This document shows positions 6,869-44,272 of a stretch of 48,401 bases of DNA, one piece after another. Source of the stretch: a virus; IMG/VR virus record IMGVR_UViG_3300005563_000044, positions 1-48,401 of that record. The stretch is one strand, 5' to 3'. A program made the translations under genes and the position numbers. Under the pieces are notes generated by a model, which ran no database searches, was not told the origin of the DNA, and saw only the letters and a program-made list of their open reading frames with translations. Positions within the stretch are counted from its first letter, which is position 1. Each line of letters begins with the position of its first letter.

Positions 6869-7540
6869 TCAGCTGTTGTCAAAACCGTCGACGGTATTGG
6901 ACAGGACTGTGGCCAGATCAACCGTCCCACCAGGCAAGGTGGTGGCGATGTAGCTTTCGAGTTCCTGGATCTTGGCCAGCGCCGCTGTCAGCTGCGCTTG
7001 CGCGGCCAGGTACATCGCGCGATCGGTCTGGTTGTTGGTGATCTCTGCCAACCGGGCCGACTCGATTGCATTGGCGTCCGCGATGGACATGTTCTTGGTC
7101 TCGCTGATCGCAGCTTGCTGGATCTGGGGCGTGACGCCGAACATGTCGTGGACCACGTTGGCGATGGCGACTTTGACAGCCGTCAGGTCAACGTAGTTGG
7201 GGATCGCTCCCAGACTGACTCCGAGCACGATGGCGGTATACGGGATACCGCCCATGTTGGGGTAGCTGAGAATGTAGGACGTCGGAACGTAGAGAAAGGC
7301 TCCCCCGTTCGATCGCAAAGTGACGATGCACTCGCCATTTGCGACGTCCGTGACGTAGATCGACTCGGCCAGTCCATTGGGGACGTAGAAAGTCGCATAC
7401 GGATCGATCCCCAGCTTCTGGATGTCAGCGAACTTGCGAACCGCGATGCAAGTGTAGTTGACTCCAGGAATGAGGTCTTGTTCAAAGGGCGATGCGAGTC
7501 GGAATAGTCCACTCGCACCGACTGGTGGCGTCAAGGACAC
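6869..7540 (-). CDS. Probable tail-associated virion protein, unknown function
   Basis: This 223-residue protein probably starts with GTG (7538-7540), because AAAGGA stands about 8 nt upstream; no ATG is equally placed. The first 130 residues are compact and beta-rich (PYATFYVPNG, GGAFLYVPTSYILSYP). Residues 150-200 form an amphipathic helix rich in Ala, Gln and Glu that could be a coiled coil. The upstream gene ends 12 bp before it, so they likely share a transcript, and a strong hairpin follows its stop. I recognise no family. Its place between fibre genes and another probable structural gene suggests a baseplate or fibre-attachment protein. Confidence 0.75.
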   Translation of the reverse strand: MSLTPPVGASGLFRLASPFEQDLIPGVNYTCIAVRKFADIQKLGIDPYATFYVPNGLAESIYVTDVANGECIVTLRSNGGAFLYVPTSYILSYPNMGGIPYTAIVLGVSLGAIPNYVDLTAVKVAIANVVHDMFGVTPQIQQAAISETKNMSIADANAIESARLAEITNNQTDRAMYLAAQAQLTAALAKIQELESYIATTLPGGTVDLATVLSNTVDGFDNS

Positions 7541-7552
7541 GAATCAGTCCTT

Positions 7553-8914
7553 TCAGCTGTAGGTCAAACCGAGCAGCGCGTAGACCGAGCGCTTGGTGGC
7601 CATCAGGTACTGGATGTTGCCAAAGGCTTGCACCAGGTAAAGGATGTTGTTGCGCTTGATCTTCATCATGCCCGCCGGCACGACCGTGTGCTCGTCCATC
7701 GACTGGGCGATGGGCAGCATGTCGTTGAGCAAGATGGCCCAGTTCTGGGTGGTCTGCTCCATGCGGTTGAAGTCCGTGGACGACGGCGGTACGTCGATGT
7801 AGTCGGGAAACACCTGGCCGATCTCGAACAGCGCCGAGCGGTTGTCGACCGAGCCGACCATGCTCAGCACGAGCGAGTCGAACGCGCAGCCCAGCACGTT
7901 GGCGTGGGTGTCGACGAACGCCGGATCGTAGGCCGGCGCCACCAGCTTCAGGAACGCCTTGCCGTCGTTGTAGTTCACGATGGGCGAGTAGACGCCGGCG
8001 GCTTGGGTTCGGTTGGCGATGGCGTACTTGTGCCAGTGGGGCGCGATGATGAACTCGGTGCGCTTGAAGATGTCGGGAAAGATCGCGGTCCAGTCCGCCC
8101 GGCTGTGCGCCGAGTTGGCCAGGATGTAGTTGATCAGCGCATCCTTGATCGCATCGATATTGTCGCCGGCCGGACCGTAGATCAGCACGGGCCAGTCCAC
8201 GGGCACGGTCTGCCCGGAGTTGAGCGGGTTGTAGTACGTGTACTGGTCATCTCGCGAGATCGTGGGCGGGTGGCCGCTCGAGTACGTCTGCATCCGCGAG
8301 ATAATTTGAGGCGTTGTGATCGCCTGGACCATGTTGACGACACTCGTACCGGTTCCGAAGAACAGGTCGAGGTTGTCCACCGGAGGTACTACGACGATCT
8401 CGTACTCGTCGTACTCGGCTGCGAAAGCAGCAATCGAGATCCAGATCGTGTTCAGGTTGGGGATCAGGATGTGATCGCTGCCCGTGGTCAGGTCCTGCGA
8501 CTGGAACGACACCCAGTCCGGGCACCAGTACTGATCATGGCGCACCACGTCGCCGATCGAGAACGTGTCCAGACCCACCGTGGCCCCGTAGGCCACGAGG
8601 TCTTGCAGCAGTTGGTCTGCATCGATCTGACCGACCGTACCCGTCACCTTGTTGGTGATGAAGTTGATCACCCCGACCATCTTGGTGACCATCGTCGGAT
8701 CGACGGCGACCTTGCCGGCTGTCGGGCCGTCATTGCCATCATTGCTCGACGAGAAGTTGTAGATCGTGTAGCCAGGCTGGCTACCGTCTTCGTAGACACC
8801 AACCTCACGGGAGAACGTGGCCCCGTAGGTGGTCAACTCCCCGATCGGAGAATTGGTACCAGGCACGTTCGACAAGAACGCGCTGATATTGGCAAAGCTT
8901 TTGGAAGTGTACAT
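7553..8914 (-). CDS. Probable baseplate or tail virion protein, unknown family
   Basis: The frame is open from 8953, but the ATG at 8912-8914 has GGAG seven bases upstream and gives the better start (MYTSKSFANI, 453 residues). The protein is rich in aromatic and acidic residues (DQYWCPDWVSFQSQD, YDEYEIVVVPPVDN) with no signal peptide or membrane segment. It is the first gene of a leftward group holding the fibre genes, after a divergent promoter region. This suggests a baseplate or tail-tip component on which the fibres assemble. No catalytic motif is visible. Confidence 0.78.
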   Translation of the reverse strand: MYTSKSFANISAFLSNVPGTNSPIGELTTYGATFSREVGVYEDGSQPGYTIYNFSSSNDGNDGPTAGKVAVDPTMVTKMVGVINFITNKVTGTVGQIDADQLLQDLVAYGATVGLDTFSIGDVVRHDQYWCPDWVSFQSQDLTTGSDHILIPNLNTIWISIAAFAAEYDEYEIVVVPPVDNLDLFFGTGTSVVNMVQAITTPQIISRMQTYSSGHPPTISRDDQYTYYNPLNSGQTVPVDWPVLIYGPAGDNIDAIKDALINYILANSAHSRADWTAIFPDIFKRTEFIIAPHWHKYAIANRTQAAGVYSPIVNYNDGKAFLKLVAPAYDPAFVDTHANVLGCAFDSLVLSMVGSVDNRSALFEIGQVFPDYIDVPPSSTDFNRMEQTTQNWAILLNDMLPIAQSMDEHTVVPAGMMKIKRNNILYLVQAFGNIQYLMATKRSVYALLGLTYS

Positions 8915-11604: not shown

Positions 11605-11690
11605 TTGTCCTGAGACGGGGGTGCATGAGTATCGTATGTAGCGATGCCCATCGCCCCCTATTCTAAACCCTTCTTGAGGTTCCACCCACC

Positions 11691-12110
11691 ATGTCTGCCC
11701 CCTCTGCCACGCAGAACAAGCCAAGTGTCGTCCGTGAAGCCTTTGCCAGTGTCCTGGCACGGACGTTTACCGACAGCATGAAACGCGCCATCCTGTTCGC
11801 GTCGCTGGCGGCCAGCCAGGACGGACCGCGGTTCTCCAAAGAGATGATCCACAAGCTCAACAAGGTCATGGTGCTGGCCAACAGCGACCAGCCCCTGGAA
11901 ATCCCGGTCATGCTCAGCCGCGTGATCTGGTCGGGCGATCGTGGAGATCAGGTGCTGTACGCGATGACTCAGTGCAAGACGCAGGACGAAGCCGTCGAGC
12001 ATCTGATGAGCGTCATTCCCAACTGGTTGCGCTACGGCAACCTGAAGGGCATGCGCGAGGACCTGATGAAGATGGTGCGCTCCAGCGAGTTCCTGGTGGT
12101 CAACCACTGA
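11691..12110 (+). CDS. Hypothetical protein, 139 residues
   Basis: A soluble, mostly helical protein with no signal peptide, membrane segment or catalytic motif. It has many Met and Leu residues and a basic face (KEMIHKLNKVMVLA). GAGG lies 12 nt upstream of the ATG. It follows the RNase H gene by 86 bp and ends before a bidirectional hairpin. I do not recognise the family; the replication-gene setting is the only clue. Confidence 0.75.
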   Translation: MSAPSATQNKPSVVREAFASVLARTFTDSMKRAILFASLAASQDGPRFSKEMIHKLNKVMVLANSDQPLEIPVMLSRVIWSGDRGDQVLYAMTQCKTQDEAVEHLMSVIPNWLRYGNLKGMREDLMKMVRSSEFLVVNH

Positions 12111-12159
12111 CGGACTTTTCGGACCTGCGCACTTACCGTTTCGGGGGAAAAGCAGGAAA

Positions 12160-12203
12160 GACAGCATAATCGGGGAGCCGCAAGGGCTCCCCTTTATGCC
12201 GCC
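12160..12203. terminator. Bidirectional hairpin terminator with TATGCYGYC flanks
   Basis: GGGGAGCC (12172-12179) pairs with GGCTCCCC (12185-12192) around the loop GCAAG. TTTATGCCGCC follows on the plus strand and ATTATGCTGTC on the minus strand, so the outer arms also partly pair. It separates convergent genes ending at 12110 (plus) and 12203 (minus). Confidence 0.8.
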
Positions 12204-12547
12204 TAGAGAATGTCGTTGTCTACCGGAAGGTAGACTTCAGGTATTCGTGGAAGCTCTACCGTCTTACCAGCCAGCTCGTGTCCGCAGTCTTCTGCAAACA
12301 TGATCTTCCCATTTGCCAGGGTGTAGTGGCAGGCAATCCAACTTCTAACCCCTTCTCGTTTGATTGAGACCTGGGAGAAGTTCAAAGACGGACTGAAGGT
12401 CGGACATTCCCGGTTACCGTTGAAGTACCAACGGTTTCCTTTTCCATCACCGCCGTGAATGGGAATCGAATGTAGCGTCTTACAGCCTGGGCAGTAATGA
12501 CCCCACGACGCGTTTCCCATGTCACGCAGGAAAGGCGGCCAGCACAC
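12203..12547 (-). CDS. DUF6527-like small zinc-ribbon phage protein
   Basis: This 114-residue protein starts with GTG (12545-12547), preceded by AAGGAG at the right distance inside the end of the upstream gene. It shows the pattern of a small phage family: YCPGCKTLH, a WYFNGN ... PTFSPSL core, a CHYTLANGKI segment and DCGHELAGKTVELP. The paired Cys (CPGC) plus later Cys/His residues suggest a metal-binding fold. Members are common in phage genomes and of unknown function, sometimes mislabelled as ammonia monooxygenase. It overlaps the ribosome-binding site of its upstream neighbour's end, so expression is probably coupled. Confidence 0.72.
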   Translation of the reverse strand: MCWPPFLRDMGNASWGHYCPGCKTLHSIPIHGGDGKGNRWYFNGNRECPTFSPSLNFSQVSIKREGVRSWIACHYTLANGKIMFAEDCGHELAGKTVELPRIPEVYLPVDNDIL

Positions 12548-12550
12548 GAC

Positions 12551-13441
12551 TTACTCCTTCAGGAGCGCCGGCATGGCCTTCATGTTCGTCTCGGTGATGT
12601 TGGACAGCGTCCAGACGCGGAACATCGTCACCGAGTAGAACTCGACCTCACGGGCGGCCGACAGCGTGCCTTCGGACAGGTTCTTGAGCGTGGCAGCCGA
12701 GCTGCTATCGAGCTCGCCGGCGTGCACAGCGTTCTTGAGCGCGTCCAGCAGGTCCATGATGTCCTTGACGGTGGCTTGCACGACATCCGGCTTGGTCAGC
12801 TCGGCGTCACGACGCAGGTCACCCAGGCCATTCAGGAACGGCTTCCAATCGGCGTTGCGGGTGAAGCACTCGCCCACCGACGACTTGGCCGTGGTCGAGC
12901 CGTGGGTGAAGAACTGACCGATCTCCTTCTGGTAGTGCTCACGCTCGGCGTCGCGCTTGGCCAGGAAGGCGAGGTCGCGCGAGCTGTTCATCGTGGCGTT
13001 CTTGCTCGAGACGATGCGGCTGAGGAACTGCGCGTACGGGTTGAGCACTTCACCGATCACACCCGAGGCGTGCTTGGTGCACAGCGCCAGCGCTTCGACG
13101 TAGGGGACCATGTGACCCTTGAAGCCTTCGGGCACGTACCAGCGCAGGTTCGTGATGGACATGTAGCGCTGGGCTTCCATGAGCATCAGGAACTTGCGGA
13201 ACTCGTTGTAGTTCAGGACCTCGTCGGTGGGCTTTTCGATGGACGCCAGCTGGCTGTCCTTGCCGATCAGACGGGTCAGGAAACCCTTGGTGGTGTCCAC
13301 GAGCGAAGGGACGACGTTGCGCAGCGTGGTCGTGAAATTGGCCAGGTGTTCCGATTCCAGCGAACACCGCGCACCGATGCGCTCGAGGTCACGCAGCGTG
13401 ACGGGTTCGGGACGGGCCAGGGTAGACAGGATTTTGGACAT
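12551..13441 (-). CDS. Hypothetical protein, 296 residues, possible virion protein
   Basis: A soluble, largely helical protein starting at the ATG 13439-13441. No nucleotide-binding motif, signal peptide or membrane segment is visible. Codon use is strongly biased to GC-ending codons, as in the abundant structural genes of this window. It is transcribed leftward, opposite to the replication genes on either side, with a 141-bp divergent region upstream. Strong codon bias and separate transcription hint at a late, abundant product such as an internal head protein, but this is inference only. Confidence 0.75.
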   Translation of the reverse strand: MSKILSTLARPEPVTLRDLERIGARCSLESEHLANFTTTLRNVVPSLVDTTKGFLTRLIGKDSQLASIEKPTDEVLNYNEFRKFLMLMEAQRYMSITNLRWYVPEGFKGHMVPYVEALALCTKHASGVIGEVLNPYAQFLSRIVSSKNATMNSSRDLAFLAKRDAEREHYQKEIGQFFTHGSTTAKSSVGECFTRNADWKPFLNGLGDLRRDAELTKPDVVQATVKDIMDLLDALKNAVHAGELDSSSAATLKNLSEGTLSAAREVEFYSVTMFRVWTLSNITETNMKAMPALLKE

Positions 13442-15959: not shown

Positions 15960-16387
15960 TGAAGGTCTACCCGCCTCCGGCTATTAGCTACGATGACTAC
16001 ACTTCTTTCGAGAAGCGGGTCATCGTGGCCGGTAGCCGGAGTTATTCCGACTACAAGCAGTTCTGCCAGGTGTTTGCCTGGTACTTGGAGTTCTTTGAGC
16101 TCGGGAATGCTTTGATCATTTCGGGTGATGCCCGCCATGGTCCGGACGCAATGGCAATCCAGTATTGCATCGAACACAACAAACCCTATCTGCCCATGCC
16201 GGCCGATTGGGACAAGTTGGGTAAAGGCGCCGGCTACGCTCGAAATGCGGATATGGACAAGATATCCACTCATTTGCTGGCCTTCTGGGACTGTCAGTCC
16301 CGAGGCACTCGAAACATGATCGAGATTAGCTACAAGTCCAAGAAGAACGTCAAAGTCGTCTTGGTCTTGGGTGATCACGAACGCTGA
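15959..16387 (+). CDS. DUF2493 / SLOG-domain (YspA-like) nucleotide-binding protein
   Basis: The 142-residue product fits the DUF2493 family of the SLOG superfamily. It has a first strand and loop VIVAGSRSY (residues about 20-29), an ISGDARHGPDAMAI segment (54-68) and PADWDKLGKGAGYARN (80-96). FWDCQSRGTRNMI near 112-125 completes the pattern. The SGDARHG and SRGT loops form the nucleotide-ligand pocket in SLOG folds. Members probably bind or process nucleotide-derived ligands; none has a settled function in phages. The start overlaps the preceding stop (TGATG). Because other SLOG domains act in NAD/ADP-ribose-based defence, a part in handling nucleotide signals is a reasonable guess. Confidence 0.85.
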   Translation: MKVYPPPAISYDDYTSFEKRVIVAGSRSYSDYKQFCQVFAWYLEFFELGNALIISGDARHGPDAMAIQYCIEHNKPYLPMPADWDKLGKGAGYARNADMDKISTHLLAFWDCQSRGTRNMIEISYKSKKNVKVVLVLGDHER

Positions 16388-24298: not shown

Positions 24299-27200
24299 TT
24301 ATCGCGCCATGCTGATCGGTGCTCGCGGCGGAGGCCGCGGGACATCGGTAGGGGCAGGCGTCTTGGTGGTGTCGTTGGAGGCCGCTGCGCCAGTGGGCAG
24401 CGAACCCAACTTGCTCAGGATGGTGGCCATGAGCGTGAGCTGGGACAACGACCGGGTCTGGACATCGAGCGATTGAGTCAGGGTCTGACCAATGGACTTG
24501 ATGTCGCCACCCGTGGCAGCAGCGGTTGCAGCGTGTTGGGCTGCAATCTCGTCGGCCGAAGGTTGCAGACGAGGCTGGTAGCCTTGGTAGCCTGCCACTG
24601 GCGGACGCACCACCGGCGCAGCCGGAGTCGGGGTGGCGGGGGTGGTCGCAGCTGGCGTTGCCGCCGGCGTGGCCGAGGTGGCCGCCGCCACACTGCCGCC
24701 GTAACCCGATGCGCTCGAAGCGCCCGCAGCAGTTCCGGCAGCTGTGCTCGAATTGATGAGCGCAGCAGCGCCTGTGGCTGCTTGGGACTTCGGAGCATTC
24801 GGATCGACCGCAGTGGCCACTGGCTTATTCGGCGAAGCCGTCGCAGTGACCGGCGCACCCTTTTGTCCACCAGCAACAGCCGAGGTCGAAGCCGTTGCAG
24901 GATTGGTCGTCGGATCACCCGTGACCTCGCCCTTGGCGTTCTTCTTTGCATCTGTTGCAGTTGGAGCCGCCGAAGCCGTCATGTCCGTAGACACACCGTA
25001 CTTCTTGGTCTCGCGATCGATCTTTTCCGTGAACAGCGAGTAGATCTCAGCAAACGTACGCGGAGCGTTGTTGCGCTTGGTGTCGTAGAAGATCGTCGGG
25101 TTCGCACTGGCAGCCTTGGGCATGGCTTCAGCAGCGATTGCAGACGGATCACTGTTCAGGAACTGAGCGGCGCCACCGGCGCCCAGGAAATGGGCCAGGT
25201 ACAGATCGGTCGAGGTCACCGGTTTCTTCAAACGACCTTGCAGGCTCGTCAGATTCTCACGGATGAACTCGGCACCCATCAGGGCGTTGGCTCGCGGATC
25301 GGTCGGGGGGGTGCCAGGTGCGATGCCGTACTTGGCAGCGTACTTGGACATCATCGCGTTCCAGGTCGAGGGGATGAACTGGTACAACCCCACCGCGCCC
25401 GAAGCCCGCTTACCCGTTGCCGGGTTGATGGGTGGCATGGCGTTGGCTCGGAAGCCTGACTCGACTGCGGCGGTCGTGATCAACGGATTGAGCGGGACAC
25501 CAGTCATCTTGGAGACGGCTGCCAGCATGTCCTTCATCCCTTCGTAGCCGTCGCCCGAAGGCTGCGGCAGCGAATTGATGTCACCGCCCGTACCCTTGCC
25601 CGGATGTTCGATCGGCGCGCCCTTGGTGAAGTCACCGATGGCACGCACGCCCTTGGCGTCCGGAGACAATGGCAGCGATTGACTGAAGCCCACCCCACCC
25701 GCGAGTTTGGCCGTGTCCTTTTCGACAGAGGACTTGTCTCGCTGGATGATGTCGGTCTTGCCCGTCTTCGGGTCCTTGGCAGTGTCCGTCTGGCTGGCAG
25801 ACGTTCCCATGGCAGCACCCTTGGCTTCGTTGGCCCGTTGGGCGTCCTTGACCTTGGTGGACATCTGCTCGTTGGCTTTGACCGCCTTGACCGCTTCGGT
25901 CAGGAACTGCAAGTTGGCTTGGACGGTGGCCGGATCATCGTTCAGGGCGTAACCCTTCCACGGCGAATCGGAGACCTTCCAGACTGAGACCTTGGAGCCA
26001 TCGACCACCGACGAGGTCGTGTAGACCGCGTTGGCCGTATCGATCTGCATTTGCGGGGTCAGCGCCATCTCCGCGCCCACCAGGTCCTTCTTGCCCGTGA
26101 GCTTGGTGACCATGGTCGCGTAGTTCAGGTAGACCGGCAAGAAGCGGTTACGGAACCACTTCATCCAAGCCAGACCTTCAGGACTGTGCGGACCCGTGAT
26201 ACCGAATGTCCCCTTGACCTGATTGAGCAACGCTTCGATGTCTTCATCGTAGGTCGCCCCATCCTTGTTGATCTTCAGGACCTTCATCACGTTCATTTCG
26301 AGGTAACGGATGTTCTTGATCTTGTCAACGTCCATCTCCACCAGACCGTAGGTCTTGTAGCGGATGGAGCTGAGTGCATCAATGCGACCCGTTTGCCCTG
26401 TGAACAGGTAATCGCTCGGAACAGTGTTGCCAGCAATCAGGTTGACGCCAGCATCTTTGTTCGTTGCATCGGTCGGAACCGTGCCACCCAGATCAGAAGC
26501 CGCTTTGGCAGCAGCTGCTTCAGCAGGACTGACACCGGCCGCGGCCGCAGCCGTACCGACCGCAGATTTAGCACCTGCGGTCAGGCTCGTAGCAGCAGCC
26601 TTACCAGTAGCAGCAGCGCCAACCGCAGCGGCCGGAGCCACCGCAGCCTTCGTTTTCGGATTGGCGGCTTCATTGGCAAGATCCTTCTTGAGTTGGTCTT
26701 GCGCAATGTCAATGGCCGACTTCACGCCATCACTGGCTACCGTCAGGTTCTTCTGATCGGTAAACGGAGACGCCATGTAGTCGTAGGGACCATTGGGCAT
26801 CGAAGACGCGGCCAGGTAGTCCAGCTTTTCTTGCGCCGTCAGCTTACTGCTGTCGACGTCGTGCAGCTCGACTCCGGGCTTTTTGGCACGCAGCGAAGCG
26901 ATGTGCGCAAAAAAGACAGGCTTGAAACGGTTGTTGAACCAAGCCGCCCACTGGTTGACTTGATCCGAAGCCTTTTCAATCTTGAAGATCTTCATGCACT
27001 CGTCCAAGCTGAACTTGGATTGATCGAACGAAGCTTTGCCATCGTCGATCTTGGTGATCGGCTCGAGCAGCTTTTCCAGATCCCACACCGGGGCCAGGTG
27101 ATCCTGGGGTTCCGATGCAGCAATACCGTACTGCGCGTAGCGAACCGTCGACAGAGTGCCGAGGCGAACCTTGGTCAGGTACTTGTAGCCGTAGTACGCC

Positions 27201-33154: not shown

Positions 33155-36100
33155 ATGGCATTGCTGCAATTTGCGCCGTTCTACCGGATGTACGGTATCC
33201 GGCGCCCCGATCAACTGGTCCGACCCCCGCTGCCGGTGCTGGCCAAGCTCGCGCTCACCCGAGACGCGATCTACCACTACCTGGGCGTGGGTCCCCTCGA
33301 TGACGGTCCGACCGATCACGAGAACGTTCTGAAGTCGGTGCCCAAGAACATGTTCATCGCAACGGTTCCGGCACTGACGCGCACGCAGGGCAATCCCCGC
33401 GCGATCCCGCTGATCGTCGATCGCCTGGCCCGCGCGCACCGCGTCAAGAACCCCAAGTTCCTGCCGATGAAGGATCTGGAGATCTCCCAACGAGATCCTC
33501 GCGTTCCTGTCGTCTACAACTACGCCTATCTCCAACGCCTGTACAAGTACCAGCGCAACTACTACGCTTCGTACAACAAGTGGGAGAACATCTTTGCCAC
33601 GCTGTGGACCACCGTGGCCCAAGTGGCCACCAAGTCCGATCGTCACCAGTTCGTCGAGTTCGACCTGCCCCGCATCCTGCCGAGTCTGTCGGTGCTGCGC
33701 AGCGCCGAGACCAACATCACCCAAAAGACCGCCAGCGTCTTTGCCACCCTCGAATCGGTGGCGATCCTGGAGCTGTGGAAGTGGCTGGGTGAGAACCGGG
33801 ACGCGTCGTCGATGAATGCGATCCGAAAGGAAGACTACAAGAAGGTGAACATCATCTTCCGAGAGTCCGACCGCTGGTTCGTGATCAACCTGGGTACGCT
33901 CAACGAGTGGCGTGGCCTGTCGAAGAAAGAGCAAAAAGAGATCAAGCCTGAAGAGCTGGCCAAGATGAAGACGGCTGTCCTGACGCCTGAAACGATGCAA
34001 AAGCGTTTCTTGCGGGTGACGATGTCGCTGTTCGAGGCCCGCAACAACCAGCTCGACGAGAATATCGGCACCGACGAGCCCGATCCGACGCCCGGTGCGG
34101 TCCAGAACGCACCGTCCAATTCGCCCGAGGTCAAGACCACGGTGGCTGACAAAGCGCCGCAAGGCAAGGTCAAGGAGATCAACCCGGTTCCCGGCACGAC
34201 CGCCGGTGGCCAGGAAGACACCAAAGCCGATGTCACCCCCGAGCAGCCGTTTGCCACGCCCGGGGAAGAACGCGACGACGAAGCCGACGTGGACGAGGTC
34301 GCTCGCGACGAAGCTGCTGAACAGCAGCGCGAACGCGACGCCCAGATCACCGACGCTCCGACCGAGCGCGAGATGCAAGACATCGACAACATCGAGCGTC
34401 TGGAAGAGCATCTGGATGCGGACATCGACCGAGACCTCGAAGAACTCGAGCGCATCATCGACAACGCCCATCCGGACGAGAACGCGGCTGTCGACGGCAC
34501 GATCGAAGTGGTCGTGCCCGAAGCCAAGGACCTCGAATCGGCCATCATCGAGCACGCCAACGCGCTGGCCGACAACGGCGGTCTGTCGGCAGCCGAGTAC
34601 CGTCGCTACATTGAGGCGGCTGGGAACTACAAGAAGATCCAGGCGCCCAACGGCAAGTCGATGCACGAGTACGTGTCGATCCATCCCCAGGATGTCGAGA
34701 TCAAGCACGTGCCCCAGGTGCCTGACCACAAGACGGTGGCCGACAAGTCCATGCTCAAGTCCACCCACTTGACCTTTGACCGGCACTACGTCAAAGACGT
34801 CATGGGGCGCGACGTGGCCGCCGCGGTGATGAGTCTGCAAAACGCAGGCATCCTCGTGACCGACTACTCGGCCCACGACGTCGAAGACATCACCGGGGCT
34901 TACACCGAGTACTACGTCAAGGTCAAGCCGCTCCAAGGCACTCCTTCGACGCTGCGCTGGCGCATGCCCAAGGTCGACGAAGAAGGCTCGTTCAGGATCA
35001 ACGGCGTCAACTACCGCACGCGCAAGCAACGCGGCGACCTGCCGCTGCGCAAGCTCGGTCCGGATCGCGTGGCGCTCACGAGCTACTACGGCAAGCTCTT
35101 TGCCGAACGTTCGAGCAAGAAAGTCAACGACTACGGCCGCTGGCTGCGGGACAAGATCATGGCCATGGGGTTGGACCAGTCCAACAACGTGATCACCGAT
35201 CTGATCCCGGGCAACTGTTTCGTCAATGAGATCAAGGCGCCGCGTCTGTTCACGATGCTGGCCATGGGTTTCCGCGCGTTCACGGTCAACCACGCCGGCA
35301 TGCAACTGAACTTCAATCTGGACCACCGCAAGTTGCGTCCGAAGATCATGCCTGGCCTGCCGTATCCGTGCGGTTCGACCAGCGATGGTCGGGGACTGGT
35401 CATCAGCAAGGAAGACGTCATCTACGTGAACAACGGTGGTGGCAAGCTCGAACCGCTGCCGGCCCTTGAGACCATCATGGGTGTCGAGAGCACCAAGGCG
35501 CCGGTCGAATACGTGGAACTGCGCGTGTTTGGCAAGATGATCCCCATGGGCGTCATCCTGGGCTACCTGCTCGGACTGGAGAACCTGGTCAAGATGCTGG
35601 GCGTGCGGCCGCGCATCGTTCCGGCCGGTCAGCGTCCCACGCTCAACGCCGACGAATGGTCCATCGTCTTCGAAGACGAAGCCTGGGTCTTTAACCGCGA
35701 CGACGTGGTTGCCACGTTGGTGCTGGCAGGCTGGCGTGACTTTGACAGCACGACCCGCACGTACAGCTTTCACGAGTTCAATCGCAAGGACGTGTACTTC
35801 AACCTCCTTGAAGACCACGGCCTGAGCGTGCGGTACCTGCGCGAGATGGACTTGATGAACAACATGTTCATCGACCACATCTGCAAGGAACTGCTCATCG
35901 AGATGAACGAGCCCGTGATCTTCACGCAGCTCCTGATTCGTGCGTGTCAGCTCCTGGCCACCGATGATCACCCCCACGAACTCGATTCGCGCTTCATGCG
36001 CGTCAAGGGTTACGAGCGCTTTGCTGGCTTGCTCTATAGCGAACTGGTCAAGTCGGTGCGAGTGCACAACGCCAAGGCGTCCAAGTCCACTTCGCCGTTG

Positions 36101-37579
36101 GAGATGAACCCGCACGCGGTGTGGATTGCCATCTCCGAAGATCCGGCCAAGGACCAATCGCTCGAGATCAACCCGATCAAGGAGTTGAAGGAAAAAGAAG
36201 CGGTGACCTACTCGGGCACCGGCGGCCGTTCGGGTCGCTCCATGGTCAAGCGGACTCGCGCATTCCACCCGAGCGATCTGGGTGTGATCTCCGAGGCCAC
36301 GACCGATTCGTCCGACGTGGGCATCAACACGTTCATGACCGCCGACCCGCAGTTCAAGAGCCTGCGGGGCACCGCCCATCCCTACCAGCACGGGGCGATG
36401 GGGCAGACGGCAGCCTTGTCCACGTCCTCTCTGGTTTCGGCCGGAGCGGACCGCGACGACATGAAGCGTGCCAACTTCATCTCGATTCAAGCCGCGCACG
36501 GCGTGGCCACTGAAGGCAACCACCAGGCTCAAGTCCGCACGGGCTACGAGTCGGTCATCCCGCACCGGGTCTCGGACATGTACGCCTACATGGCCAAGGG
36601 TCCGGGCAAGGTCGTCTCGATCGATCAGTTTGCTGTTCGCATCGAGTACGCCAACGGGGACGTGGTGGGCATTCAGTTGGGCAAACGCTACGGCAACGCC
36701 GCGGGCTTGACGATCCCTCACGAGATCGTCTGCTGCGTCAAGGTCGGTCAAGAGTTCAAGCTGGGTGACCCCATCGCGTACAACCGCGGGTTCTTCGAGC
36801 AAGACTTCTTTGACAAGACCAAGATCGTCTGGAAGTCCAGCCGCTCGGTCAAGACGGTGCTGCTCGAATCGGCCGACACGCTCGAAGACTCCAGCGCCAT
36901 CTCTCAACGTCTGTCGGATCAGTTGGCTACCAATGTCACGAAGGTGCGTACCATCGTGATTCGGTTTGACCAGCAGGTCCACCGCATGGTCAAGGCCGGT
37001 GAAGAAGTCGAGTTCGATTCACCTTTGTGTCTGATCGAAGATCCGGTGAGCGCCAGCAATGGCCTGCTCAACGAAGCCACGATCGACACGCTGCGTCTGC
37101 TGCAAGCGCAAACGCCGCAAGCCAAGATGAAAGGCAAGGTCGACCGCATCGAAGTCTTCTATCACGGTGAAAAGGAAGACATGTCTGCAACGCTGCAGGC
37201 ACTGGCCAACAAGAGTGATGCTGTCCTGGTGGCTCGCCAGCGCAGTCTGAACAAGAAGGCCTTTACCGGAAGCGTCAACGACAACTTCCGGATCGAAAAC
37301 GATCCGCTCATGCTCGATACGGCAGCCATCAAGGTCTACATCACGGCCTCGGTTGCAGCAGGGGTGGGCGACAAGGGTGTCTTCAGTCACCAATTGAAGT
37401 CCGTCTTCGGACGGGTCTTTTCTGGTGAAGTCGAAACCCAATCGGGTGTGCGCATCGATGCGATCTTCGGGGCCAAGTCCGTAGACGATCGCGTGGTGCT
37501 CAGCCCGTACCTCGTGGGAACCACCGCGAGCTTGCTCAACACCATCGCCAAGCGCGTGGTGACAGCGTACGAAGGCTGA
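33155..37579 (+). CDS. RNA polymerase beta-like subunit with acidic insertion
   Basis: This 1,474-residue protein aligns with bacterial beta in order. EEGSFRINGVNY (about 608) corresponds to the FIING element of the lobe. MVKRTRAFHPSDLG (about 1029) matches the RxxHPTHYG fork region. GADRDDMKRANFISIQ (about 1099) matches the DDANRALMGANMQRQ segment. GDKGVFSHQ (about 1405) matches GNKGVISKI. It ends just after the LNPLGVPSRM-like segment, so the C-terminal clamp module of beta is missing and may be supplied by the 16399-17073 product. Residues about 302-475 form an acidic, low-complexity insertion not expected in beta. It follows beta' by 12 bp. The most likely identity is the beta subunit of a virion polymerase, as in phiKZ gp178. 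Confidence 0.9.
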   Translation: MALLQFAPFYRMYGIRRPDQLVRPPLPVLAKLALTRDAIYHYLGVGPLDDGPTDHENVLKSVPKNMFIATVPALTRTQGNPRAIPLIVDRLARAHRVKNPKFLPMKDLEISQRDPRVPVVYNYAYLQRLYKYQRNYYASYNKWENIFATLWTTVAQVATKSDRHQFVEFDLPRILPSLSVLRSAETNITQKTASVFATLESVAILELWKWLGENRDASSMNAIRKEDYKKVNIIFRESDRWFVINLGTLNEWRGLSKKEQKEIKPEELAKMKTAVLTPETMQKRFLRVTMSLFEARNNQLDENIGTDEPDPTPGAVQNAPSNSPEVKTTVADKAPQGKVKEINPVPGTTAGGQEDTKADVTPEQPFATPGEERDDEADVDEVARDEAAEQQRERDAQITDAPTEREMQDIDNIERLEEHLDADIDRDLEELERIIDNAHPDENAAVDGTIEVVVPEAKDLESAIIEHANALADNGGLSAAEYRRYIEAAGNYKKIQAPNGKSMHEYVSIHPQDVEIKHVPQVPDHKTVADKSMLKSTHLTFDRHYVKDVMGRDVAAAVMSLQNAGILVTDYSAHDVEDITGAYTEYYVKVKPLQGTPSTLRWRMPKVDEEGSFRINGVNYRTRKQRGDLPLRKLGPDRVALTSYYGKLFAERSSKKVNDYGRWLRDKIMAMGLDQSNNVITDLIPGNCFVNEIKAPRLFTMLAMGFRAFTVNHAGMQLNFNLDHRKLRPKIMPGLPYPCGSTSDGRGLVISKEDVIYVNNGGGKLEPLPALETIMGVESTKAPVEYVELRVFGKMIPMGVILGYLLGLENLVKMLGVRPRIVPAGQRPTLNADEWSIVFEDEAWVFNRDDVVATLVLAGWRDFDSTTRTYSFHEFNRKDVYFNLLEDHGLSVRYLREMDLMNNMFIDHICKELLIEMNEPVIFTQLLIRACQLLATDDHPHELDSRFMRVKGYERFAGLLYSELVKSVRVHNAKASKSTSPLEMNPHAVWIAISEDPAKDQSLEINPIKELKEKEAVTYSGTGGRSGRSMVKRTRAFHPSDLGVISEATTDSSDVGINTFMTADPQFKSLRGTAHPYQHGAMGQTAALSTSSLVSAGADRDDMKRANFISIQAAHGVATEGNHQAQVRTGYESVIPHRVSDMYAYMAKGPGKVVSIDQFAVRIEYANGDVVGIQLGKRYGNAAGLTIPHEIVCCVKVGQEFKLGDPIAYNRGFFEQDFFDKTKIVWKSSRSVKTVLLESADTLEDSSAISQRLSDQLATNVTKVRTIVIRFDQQVHRMVKAGEEVEFDSPLCLIEDPVSASNGLLNEATIDTLRLLQAQTPQAKMKGKVDRIEVFYHGEKEDMSATLQALANKSDAVLVARQRSLNKKAFTGSVNDNFRIENDPLMLDTAAIKVYITASVAAGVGDKGVFSHQLKSVFGRVFSGEVETQSGVRIDAIFGAKSVDDRVVLSPYLVGTTASLLNTIAKRVVTAYEG

Positions 37580-37589
37580 TAGCCGACAC

Positions 37590-37725
37590 GGCGTAGACTG
37601 TAGTTGTGCCTTGCTGGAAGAGGTAATTAGCGAGTTTCAGGCTGAGATTGTGTGTAGAAACGCACGCTCAGGCCCGAAGGCTCGTGCGTTGCCAATTCAA
37701 AGCGGGTGTGACTACAGTCTACGCC
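37590..37725 (+). ncRNA. Structured intergenic RNA element, 136 nt, unknown class
   Basis: Perfect 15-bp inverted arms, GGCGTAGACTGTAGT (37590-37604) and ACTACAGTCTACGCC (37711-37725), enclose 106 nt. Inside, ACGCAC (37660-37665) can pair upstream with GTGTGT (37650-37655, AGAA loop, extended by GGCTGAG with CTCAGGCC). It can instead pair downstream: AACGCACG with CGTGCGTT (37683-37690), enclosing GGCC-CGAA-GGCT. The two folds exclude each other. T-rich sequence TTCTCTTTT follows the outer stem. It starts 10 nt after the beta stop and ends 30 nt before the next gene. It could be an attenuator or switch, a processed small RNA, or a complex terminator. It is not a tRNA, and no known riboswitch was recognised. 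Confidence 0.55.
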
Positions 37726-37755
37726 TTCTCTTTTAACCGCTTGTTCGAGGACATC

Positions 37756-37950
37756 ATGAAATACAAGCAGTCCGTCGGTTCGATCGTTGCTCTGGGCAAC
37801 GCAGCCGAACTGGTCAAGGCCGTGGCTCAACAAGCCGTCGGCGCCACGTCGGCCGAGTTGCTCGACGGCTCCCCCATCTCCGACGAGATGGTCATGAACC
37901 TGGCTCAATCCAGCATCGCTCAGGTGCTGGCGGGCGCGAAGAAGGAATAA
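37756..37950 (+). CDS. Small hypothetical protein, 64 residues
   Basis: GAGG stands six bases before the ATG. The product is helical, with an Ala/Val-rich middle (NAAELVKAVAQQAVGA) and a Lys-rich end, and no signal peptide. It follows the structured element at 37590-37725, which lies in its leader, and precedes the 487-residue gene by 4 bp. It may therefore be co-expressed with virion proteins. Function unknown. Confidence 0.65.
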   Translation: MKYKQSVGSIVALGNAAELVKAVAQQAVGATSAELLDGSPISDEMVMNLAQSSIAQVLAGAKKE

Positions 37951-37954
37951 CGCC

Positions 37955-39418
37955 ATGCTGACCGTTCCCGCACTGGCCAGTGCTCTGCCCACTGTCGCCA
38001 ATCTCGAAGCCCGTGGCATGGTGGCGCGCCCCATCGCCGGCACCCCGCTGGCAGCGCTCGTGGCCGCGTCCTACAAGGACCCCGAATGCGCCTGGTCGAC
38101 CAACGCCGAAGAAGCCGGCGGCGATCCCTACAAGCGCTACACCGTGCAGCTCGAACAGCTGGCCAGCGGCACCAACTCGCCCTCGTCGGTGACCGGCTAC
38201 AGCGAGCAGGACATCACGATGCAGGAGCTGGCCGGCCCCGTGGCCACGGCCGTGCTCGCGCACTTCAACCACGCACGCACCGTGGCTGCGCCGCTGGTCG
38301 ATCACTTCGTGACCGCCCTGACGCCCACCATCGAGCGCATCCTCAAGGACGACGTCTCGGGCATGGAGATCGTCGTCAACAAGCTGCCTGCGCCGATGCT
38401 GGAGAACTCGGTGATGTCGGCCTTTTCCAGGGCCAAGGACATGGCCGGCCAGACCGTGGTCTTCAACGTGTCGATGCCCCAGACCGACGAAGCCACCATC
38501 ATCTCCATGATGAAGACCGGTTCGCCCAGCGCGGACCAGGCCATCGACGACTGGGTCGAGTCGCTCGAAGACGGCTTCCTGTCGCGCGTCTACACCCAAG
38601 TGTTCACCAAGAACCCCGAGTTCGTCCAAGGCACCCCGCCTTCGACCGAGACGGTGTTCACGCGGGACGTGGACGGCGTCAACGCTGCGCTGGCCGTGTT
38701 CCTGATCGCCCGCAACCACTGGGACAAGCCCGGTGAAGGCGTCGAGATGAACCTGGACGCCTACCAGGACGCCATGACCATGCTGCGTGACCAGGCCGCG
38801 CTGCGCCTGAGCCACGAAGTCGGCCAGGCCGATCGCAACGAGAAGTACGGCACGCTCGTGCGCTCGCATTCGCGCAGCAAGATCCACGTCAACGACGTCG
38901 TCTACCGCAAGTTCCTCAACGACGGCGGTACCAACGAGATCCTGTTCGGCAACTCACTGCTGTCCAAGCCGGCGCTGGGCGCCAAGGACATCCTCGAGCA
39001 ACGCGCCGCGGCGGAAAAGGCCTGGGAGAACTTCCTGGCGTTCAACCGCACCACGCTGATGAACCGGCGGTTCCTGGCGGCCAAGGCGGCCTTCAAGATC
39101 GAGTTCGACATGTGGATGAGCAAGGCTTCGCAAGAAGAACTGCCCGTCAACATCCGCGACGCGGTCATGCAGTGCTTCAACGAAGAACTCGACTGCACCG
39201 TGCAAGACGAGACGATGGACCTGTACGCCTGGGTCCAGCGCCTGATCTGCCGCAGCGTGTTCTACCGCACCGACGACGAGATGATCCTGTCGTCGATCAA
39301 CCGCGTCATGAAGGCCAATCCCGAGTTCGACGCCTCCAAGGCGGCGGCCGTGGCGGTCATCGAGTACGCGGCGACCTGGGTGGGTCGCCAGCTGGAACTC
39401 GTTCCTGCTCGCGGCTGA
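37955..39418 (+). CDS. Probable abundant virion protein, 487 residues, unknown fold
   Basis: Codon use is extremely biased to GCC, CTG, GTC and AAG, as in the sheath and tube genes, which points to high expression. The protein is largely helical (HFNHARTVAAPLVDHFV, NRRFLAAKAAFKIEF) with no enzyme motif. It lies between the polymerase and the prohead protease. phiKZ carries head proteins gp176/gp177 in the same place, and several inner-body proteins are processed by the protease. A head or inner-body role is therefore the best guess, from position and bias, not from sequence identity. Confidence 0.72.
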   Translation: MLTVPALASALPTVANLEARGMVARPIAGTPLAALVAASYKDPECAWSTNAEEAGGDPYKRYTVQLEQLASGTNSPSSVTGYSEQDITMQELAGPVATAVLAHFNHARTVAAPLVDHFVTALTPTIERILKDDVSGMEIVVNKLPAPMLENSVMSAFSRAKDMAGQTVVFNVSMPQTDEATIISMMKTGSPSADQAIDDWVESLEDGFLSRVYTQVFTKNPEFVQGTPPSTETVFTRDVDGVNAALAVFLIARNHWDKPGEGVEMNLDAYQDAMTMLRDQAALRLSHEVGQADRNEKYGTLVRSHSRSKIHVNDVVYRKFLNDGGTNEILFGNSLLSKPALGAKDILEQRAAAEKAWENFLAFNRTTLMNRRFLAAKAAFKIEFDMWMSKASQEELPVNIRDAVMQCFNEELDCTVQDETMDLYAWVQRLICRSVFYRTDDEMILSSINRVMKANPEFDASKAAAVAVIEYAATWVGRQLELVPARG

Positions 39419-43693: not shown

Positions 43694-44272
43694 ATGACTT
43701 TGCTCATTGACATCAATACACGGGACCTTCCGATCGACCATGAAAAGATCGAGCAGTTGCTGCTTGATCAGTCCGACTCGGATACCGCGTTTGTTCAATT
43801 TGTCATGAAGCAATACCTGAAGGGTTTGGACGCATTCGCCCACAACCCCTCATTTGTCAACCGTTTCACGATGCGTGCTGGCGCTGATCGCAGCACGCTT
43901 CACGTGGCTCACCAGGTTACGGTACGCGACACTCAAGTCGACGTTTACCGCGCCTACGTTCACTACTCGCAAGATCTGTCGATCCAACTTCGTCGTACTC
44001 TCAATAGCGCCAACCAAGCCTTCTGCGGCGTCTGGGCGGGCATTCAGGCCGATTCGAAGTTTGTCGATACCGACGTGGCGATCTTTGCGACGCTGTCACT
44101 GTCGGATCTGTTCCATGGATTTTCCGATCCGATTTACCGTTACGACTTCCACACGGACGACACCCTGTTAGTCTCGTGTGGCCTACCCATGAATCCCCTT
44201 AGCTGCAGCATCTCGATTCCTTCGAGGATGAAGGTGCTCGAAACGCTGGAGGCTCTGGGGAAAAGCCTTTGA
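43694..44272 (+). CDS. Hypothetical protein, 192 residues
   Basis: AAGGGAG precedes the ATG. It has a helical N-terminal third and beta-rich later parts (TLHVAHQVTVRDTQVDVYRAYV, VDTDVAIFATLSLSDLFHGF). No membrane segment or catalytic signature. The stop lies 14 bp before the MazG-like start. Unknown family. Confidence 0.75.
   Translation: MTLLIDINTRDLPIDHEKIEQLLLDQSDSDTAFVQFVMKQYLKGLDAFAHNPSFVNRFTMRAGADRSTLHVAHQVTVRDTQVDVYRAYVHYSQDLSIQLRRTLNSANQAFCGVWAGIQADSKFVDTDVAIFATLSLSDLFHGFSDPIYRYDFHTDDTLLVSCGLPMNPLSCSISIPSRMKVLETLEALGKSL

Follow-up and report, generated by a model that had tools for sequence, protein, structure and literature searches.

A 136-nt hairpin past the virion RNA polymerase beta gene of a phiKZ-like phage, most likely an oversized transcript-end signal

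Gene organization and the intergenic hairpin

We studied a virus record of 48,401 bases (the window hereafter, i.e., the whole stretch of DNA analyzed), which is a fragment of a phiKZ-like jumbo phage. Its virion RNA polymerase beta gene product scored 1567 bits against the phrog_3148 RNA polymerase beta subunit, and tblastn searches placed Burkholderia phage FLC9 as the closest named relative (46.9%), with PHIKZ178 of phiKZ at 35.5%. No close relatives of the window phage were found in IMG/VR or GTDB genomes, and a scan of genome contigs gave one relative, L088 (JARLJL010000015.1), a 245-kb contig in a Sulfuriferula metagenome-assembled genome (MAG) carrying a phiKZ-like virion RNA polymerase gene with 44% identity. 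The contig probably derives from a jumbo phage, whether one that infects that host or one whose sequence was mis-binned. The features around the 3' end of the beta gene were the following:

33155-37579, + strand: virion RNA polymerase beta-type subunit gene, 1474 aa, homologue of phiKZ gp178 (phrog_3148)
37590-37725, + strand: imperfect hairpin of 136 nt, a 57-bp rod of -76 kcal/mol, interpreted as a 3'-end hairpin of terminator type
37590-37604, + strand: GGCGTAGACTGTAGT, 5' half of the perfect stem at the base of the rod, complementary to 37711-37725 without mismatch
37711-37725, + strand: ACTACAGTCTACGCC, 3' half of the same perfect stem, pairing with 37590-37604
37726-37736, + strand: pyrimidine/T-rich tract TTCTCTTTTAA, equivalent of a U-tract, directly 3' of the stem
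37756-37950, + strand: small gene, 64 aa, at the position of phiKZ gp177.1, first gene 3' of the hairpin
37955-39418, + strand: homologue of phiKZ gp177, structural head protein (phrog_3841; from position and phiKZ annotation)

By tblastn, the small gene matched the ORF that relatives have in this position (40% in L006 and 39% in L010, for example), and the order past the hairpin, i.e., small gene, gp177 homologue, an intervening gene and the head protease, was the same in phiKZ and FLC9. A longer version of the small gene, starting at a TTG at 37648 and running through the hairpin, was discarded because the proteins of relatives align from the ATG at 37756. The sigma-70 promoter match at 37689-37718 was attributed to chance (2 found versus 3.4 expected). 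No TATG, the motif at which the late polymerase of phiKZ starts (PMC4666361), occurred in 36801-38000.

The original prediction that a structured element separates the beta gene from the gene that follows was confirmed, including its two perfect 15-nt arms (37590-37604 and 37711-37725), which are exact reverse complements, its placement 10 nt past the beta stop (the gene ends at 37579) and 30 nt before the ATG at 37756, and its T-rich tail, TTCTCTTTTAAC. The arms were also said to close a 106-nt domain; 106 nt do lie between them, but they form no separate closed domain, the whole being one continuous imperfect rod. Its 57 pairs comprise 27 GC, 19 AU and 11 GU, with 84% of the nucleotides paired. 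A 15-bp perfect inverted repeat within 150 nt occurred once in the window, as compared with an average of 0.017 in dinucleotide shuffles. Raw folding energy was rejected as a criterion because GC-rich coding segments reach -90 kcal/mol, and z-scores were used instead: that of the 181-nt region was -5.2 (200 shuffles), and the best 150-nt segment over the hairpin reached -8.25 (40 shuffles), rank 1 of 2413 segments, of which only the 285 at -62 kcal/mol or below were shuffled. By this score the hairpin was the strongest structural outlier of the window, and its rod was the longest in the scan. The second strongest fold (15975-16041, z -7.5) was a 67-nt hairpin of 29 pairs followed by TTATTCC on the + strand.

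Several properties of the hairpin are those of an intrinsic terminator. The 15-bp perfect stem has a GC-rich base, GGCGTAG/CTACGCC, and it is followed at 0 nt by TTCTCTTTT, with 7 T and 2 C in 9 nt; such a tract follows the stem on the + strand only, and none was present after it on the - strand. The RNA of the + strand also folded better than that of the - strand (-76.0 vs -58.6 kcal/mol), as would be expected of an element that acts as + strand RNA. The 136-nt rod lies outside the usual terminator size (loop of 3-8 nt, stem of up to ~20 pairs), and a consensus terminator scan limited to loops of 3-8 nt did not list it. A short stem-loop is typical of terminators, not obligatory; hence the size weakens membership in the ordinary class and not a terminator-like way of working.

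The two exclusive folds originally proposed were not borne out by the energies. ACGCAC (37660-37665) paired with GTGTGT (37650-37655) with a probability of 0.64-0.71, whereas the alternative partner of ACGCACG, CGTGCGT (37683-37689), had a probability of 0.000 and forcing that helix cost 13.7 kcal/mol. Stepwise folding from the 5' end never gave the alternative pairing as the minimum at any chain length. The two comparable, mutually exclusive folds that define a two-state attenuator or riboswitch were thus lacking. Over the whole window, Rfam covariance models gave 0 matches at the gathering threshold, and no tRNA or tmRNA was found.

The same junction in relatives

Blastn of the hairpin against 50,697 phage records returned two chance-level matches at E = 8, and scans of IMG/VR with an arm-pair pattern and with an inner pattern detected no homologue of the long hairpin. 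The window held no second copy of it, nor was there a target duplication around it (flanks GACAC and TTCTC). We therefore compared the junction itself. Loci around the beta gene were collected from IMG/VR and from named phages, the beta stop and the next small gene were located, and the gap between them was folded. Gaps of 35 nt or more were present at 45 distinct junctions, one from the window and 44 from relatives. A junction hairpin was counted when it had -12 kcal/mol or better and started within 45 nt of the stop.

Such a hairpin was present at 39 of the 45 junctions, starting at a median of 4 nt past the beta stop and spanning a median of 34 nt. Hairpins of -20 kcal/mol or better occurred at 51% of the junctions versus 9% of random places in the same loci. 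The tails contained at least 5 T in some 9-nt stretch in 32 of the 39 cases, and at positions 3-9 past the hairpin 3' end (34 junctions) T made up 56-68% and A 6-18%, a T-rich and A-poor profile that is the signature of intrinsic terminators. The stems were mostly of 9-20 bp (median 14). The window hairpin, of 136 nt, is about twice as long as any other, the next longest being 69 nt. At the Sulfuriferula MAG contig the junction showed, as read by eye, a hairpin-like repeat and then TTATTTTTTA. Some phages have no gap at this place, including phiKZ (-17 nt) and LucasX (3 nt), and the function is therefore dispensable.

The sequences of the junction hairpins were unrelated between clades, and they had neither a conserved loop sequence nor a ligand-like core. 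Covariation was analyzed in two clades of short junction hairpins, the long form having no homologues. Compensatory changes preserved the stem in both, with 98% of cells paired: in clade A3, 8 of 17 pairs had changed on both sides, and in clade A4, 8 of 11; slid controls for the two sets were all far lower. These sets are small (4 and 5 sequences), and they lend support to the class of short hairpins but no direct support to the long one.

Rfam matches to group I introns, in or adjoining the virion RNA polymerase beta gene, were found in L007 at 7032-7336, 7439-7752, 11608-11899, 11947-12233 and 13177-13419, of which three fall within the beta gene region and two shortly before it, and in L006 at 12366-12675. 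In the jumbo phage contig L004 (8001-12800) the beta gene lacked a single open frame (8 stops) and was ~370 nt longer than usual; it may contain an insertion, or an intron that Rfam does not match.

Gene-end hairpins with TTATG tails

The window has nine TTATGC sites, and eight of them lay directly 3' of a GC-rich hairpin. Gene-end hairpins followed within a few nt by TTATG(CC) also occurred in phiKZ and in many phiKZ-like loci. The hairpins at gene ends with such tails, in the window and in phiKZ, were as follows:

6839, 12169, 18344 and 45758, - strand: TTATG(CC)-tailed gene-end hairpins of the window
12194, 22132, 41050 and 42376, + strand: TTATG(CC)-tailed gene-end hairpins of the window
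25214-25234, 34917-34937 and 43770-43791 of phiKZ (L089), mostly on both strands: hairpins between convergent genes with TTATG-type tails

Tails were surveyed for 347 distinct uninterrupted hairpins from 67 loci, the window included: 92 had TATG no more than 12 nt from the stem, against 13.9 expected in shuffled tails, and 46 had TATGCC, against 0.5 expected. Only 2 of the 39 beta-junction hairpins carried TATG, which indicates that this junction, the window hairpin included, uses the plain T-rich type. Several of the TTATG-tailed hairpins lie where convergent genes end, a position that favours a role in termination over one as promoters, even though TATG is the motif of phiKZ late promoters. 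This suggests that they are terminators sharing a motif with promoters. A literature search, which did not extend to the key phiKZ transcriptome paper (Putzeys 2024), returned no report of TTATG-tailed terminators and nothing specific on phiKZ termination, so that novelty is not established.

A terminator-type signal and its alternatives

We interpret the 136-nt hairpin as an intrinsic-terminator-type 3'-end signal of the virion RNA polymerase beta transcript, with a probability of roughly 65%. It has the place, the orientation and the kind of T-rich tail of the junction hairpins of relatives, 10 nt past the stop, and would thus be the version of the junction's terminator present in this phage. 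We observed the fold, the tail and the recurrence of a hairpin at this junction in relatives, with compensatory changes in two clades, whereas termination itself, the polymerase responsible and the leakiness are inferred. On this view, transcription of the beta gene by a phage-encoded RNA polymerase would yield a nascent RNA that folds so that the GC-closed 15-bp base directly abuts the T-rich tract; the polymerase would pause and release the transcript; and a leaky terminator would set the levels of polymerase relative to head genes. Some read-through is the most likely working mode, given that the downstream genes lie on the same strand and that no TATG is present nearby, and full termination would silence the head genes since no downstream promoter was recognized. 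The virion polymerase subunits of phiKZ belong to the middle genes (PMC10612078), and a partial terminator between middle polymerase genes and head genes would make sense. In phage AR9, which has homologous polymerases, RNA-seq revealed strong termination at predicted terminators (PMC5312081). The long copy probably arose from an ordinary short hairpin that was elongated or received an insertion. Counting against a terminator are the extra length of this copy, about twice that of the longest other, its tail, which is unlike the TTATG tail of the other gene-end hairpins of the window phage, the missing downstream promoter, and the phages that have no gap at this junction.

The main rival is processing by RNase III, in which the host enzyme would cut a polycistronic RNA within the rod and separate the polymerase and head-gene messages. 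In phage T7, intergenic hairpins are cut by RNase III. With 57 pairs, where at least ~20 bp of double-stranded RNA are needed, the window rod has the length of a good substrate, which most of its counterparts lack, and it has internal bulges; read-through, which processing presupposes, is expected from the missing promoter motif downstream. However, the hairpins of relatives are mostly too short (see above) for cleavage to be the general role of the junction, and they carry T-tracts that processing does not need, so we consider this explanation rather unlikely. The hairpin might also have no part in termination and only shield the message upstream of it from attack by 3' exonucleases, as a very stable rod directly past the stop codon could do, and the hairpins of relatives also lie near the stop. 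This role leaves the T-rich, A-poor tail unexplained and is also compatible with a terminator, since terminators protect as well; as a separate explanation it is improbable.

The unusual length and the very low z-score could also point to a discrete small structured RNA or a ligand-responsive two-fold switch. The original prediction had offered an attenuator among its options, along with a switch or a small RNA of a new class; the switch and the new class are not supported, given the energies, with a second fold 13.7 kcal/mol worse and of probability 0.000, the absence of an Rfam match and the short T-tract hairpins of relatives. With no homologue in the 50,697 phage records or the two IMG/VR pattern scans and no conserved core in relatives, we regard such an RNA as highly improbable. 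A distinct functional RNA of this phage lineage that replaced the ordinary short terminator at the junction is very improbable; it may, for example, be a stable double-stranded RNA arising from termination and processing and acting on host nucleases or defence. An element acting as DNA, i.e., an inserted mobile palindrome or a replication or packaging site, would account for a long inverted repeat at a junction where relatives have less DNA. Against it, the hairpin is single-copy in the window, its arms are absent elsewhere in IMG/VR, no target duplication was seen, and the 11 GU pairs of 57 favour folding of the + strand RNA (-76.0 vs -58.6 kcal/mol). For the replication or packaging site that had been suggested we found no positive evidence, and phiKZ and several others lack any gap here; a DNA-level element is accordingly a very long shot.

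Transcription termination by the multisubunit polymerases of nucleus-forming jumbo phages seems to be poorly understood. A junction hairpin that recurs across many divergent phiKZ-like phages with compensatory changes offers concrete sites to test, and the TTATG-tail class raises the sharper question of whether the motif for starting transcription is also involved in ending it. In itself the long hairpin is of limited interest, and it most likely represents an outsized signal for the end of a transcript rather than a novel RNA switch.

Among known systems, the RNase III hairpins of T7 share with the window hairpin a long imperfect intergenic structure in a tandem gene block, but the latter has a T-rich tail and short counterparts in relatives, and its cleavage is hypothetical. 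The TTATG-tailed hairpins of the window phage and phiKZ are likewise intergenic, GC-rich and at gene 3' ends, but they have short, mostly uninterrupted stems with a TTATG(C) tail and are often convergent, whereas the 136-nt hairpin has neither the short stem nor that tail. It differs from intrinsic terminators in being a 57-bp rod of 136 nt with a T-tract interrupted by C, the enzyme here would be a phage-encoded multisubunit polymerase and termination is predicted only; it shares with them a GC-closed stem followed by a T-rich tract, just past the stop codon on the coding strand, with the same position and format in many relatives. Compared with the beta/gp177.1 junction hairpins of other phiKZ-like phages (e.g., FLC9 and IMG/VR loci L002-L088), the window copy is about twice the next longest and has no detected sequence similarity to them, but junction, orientation and T-rich tail are the same.
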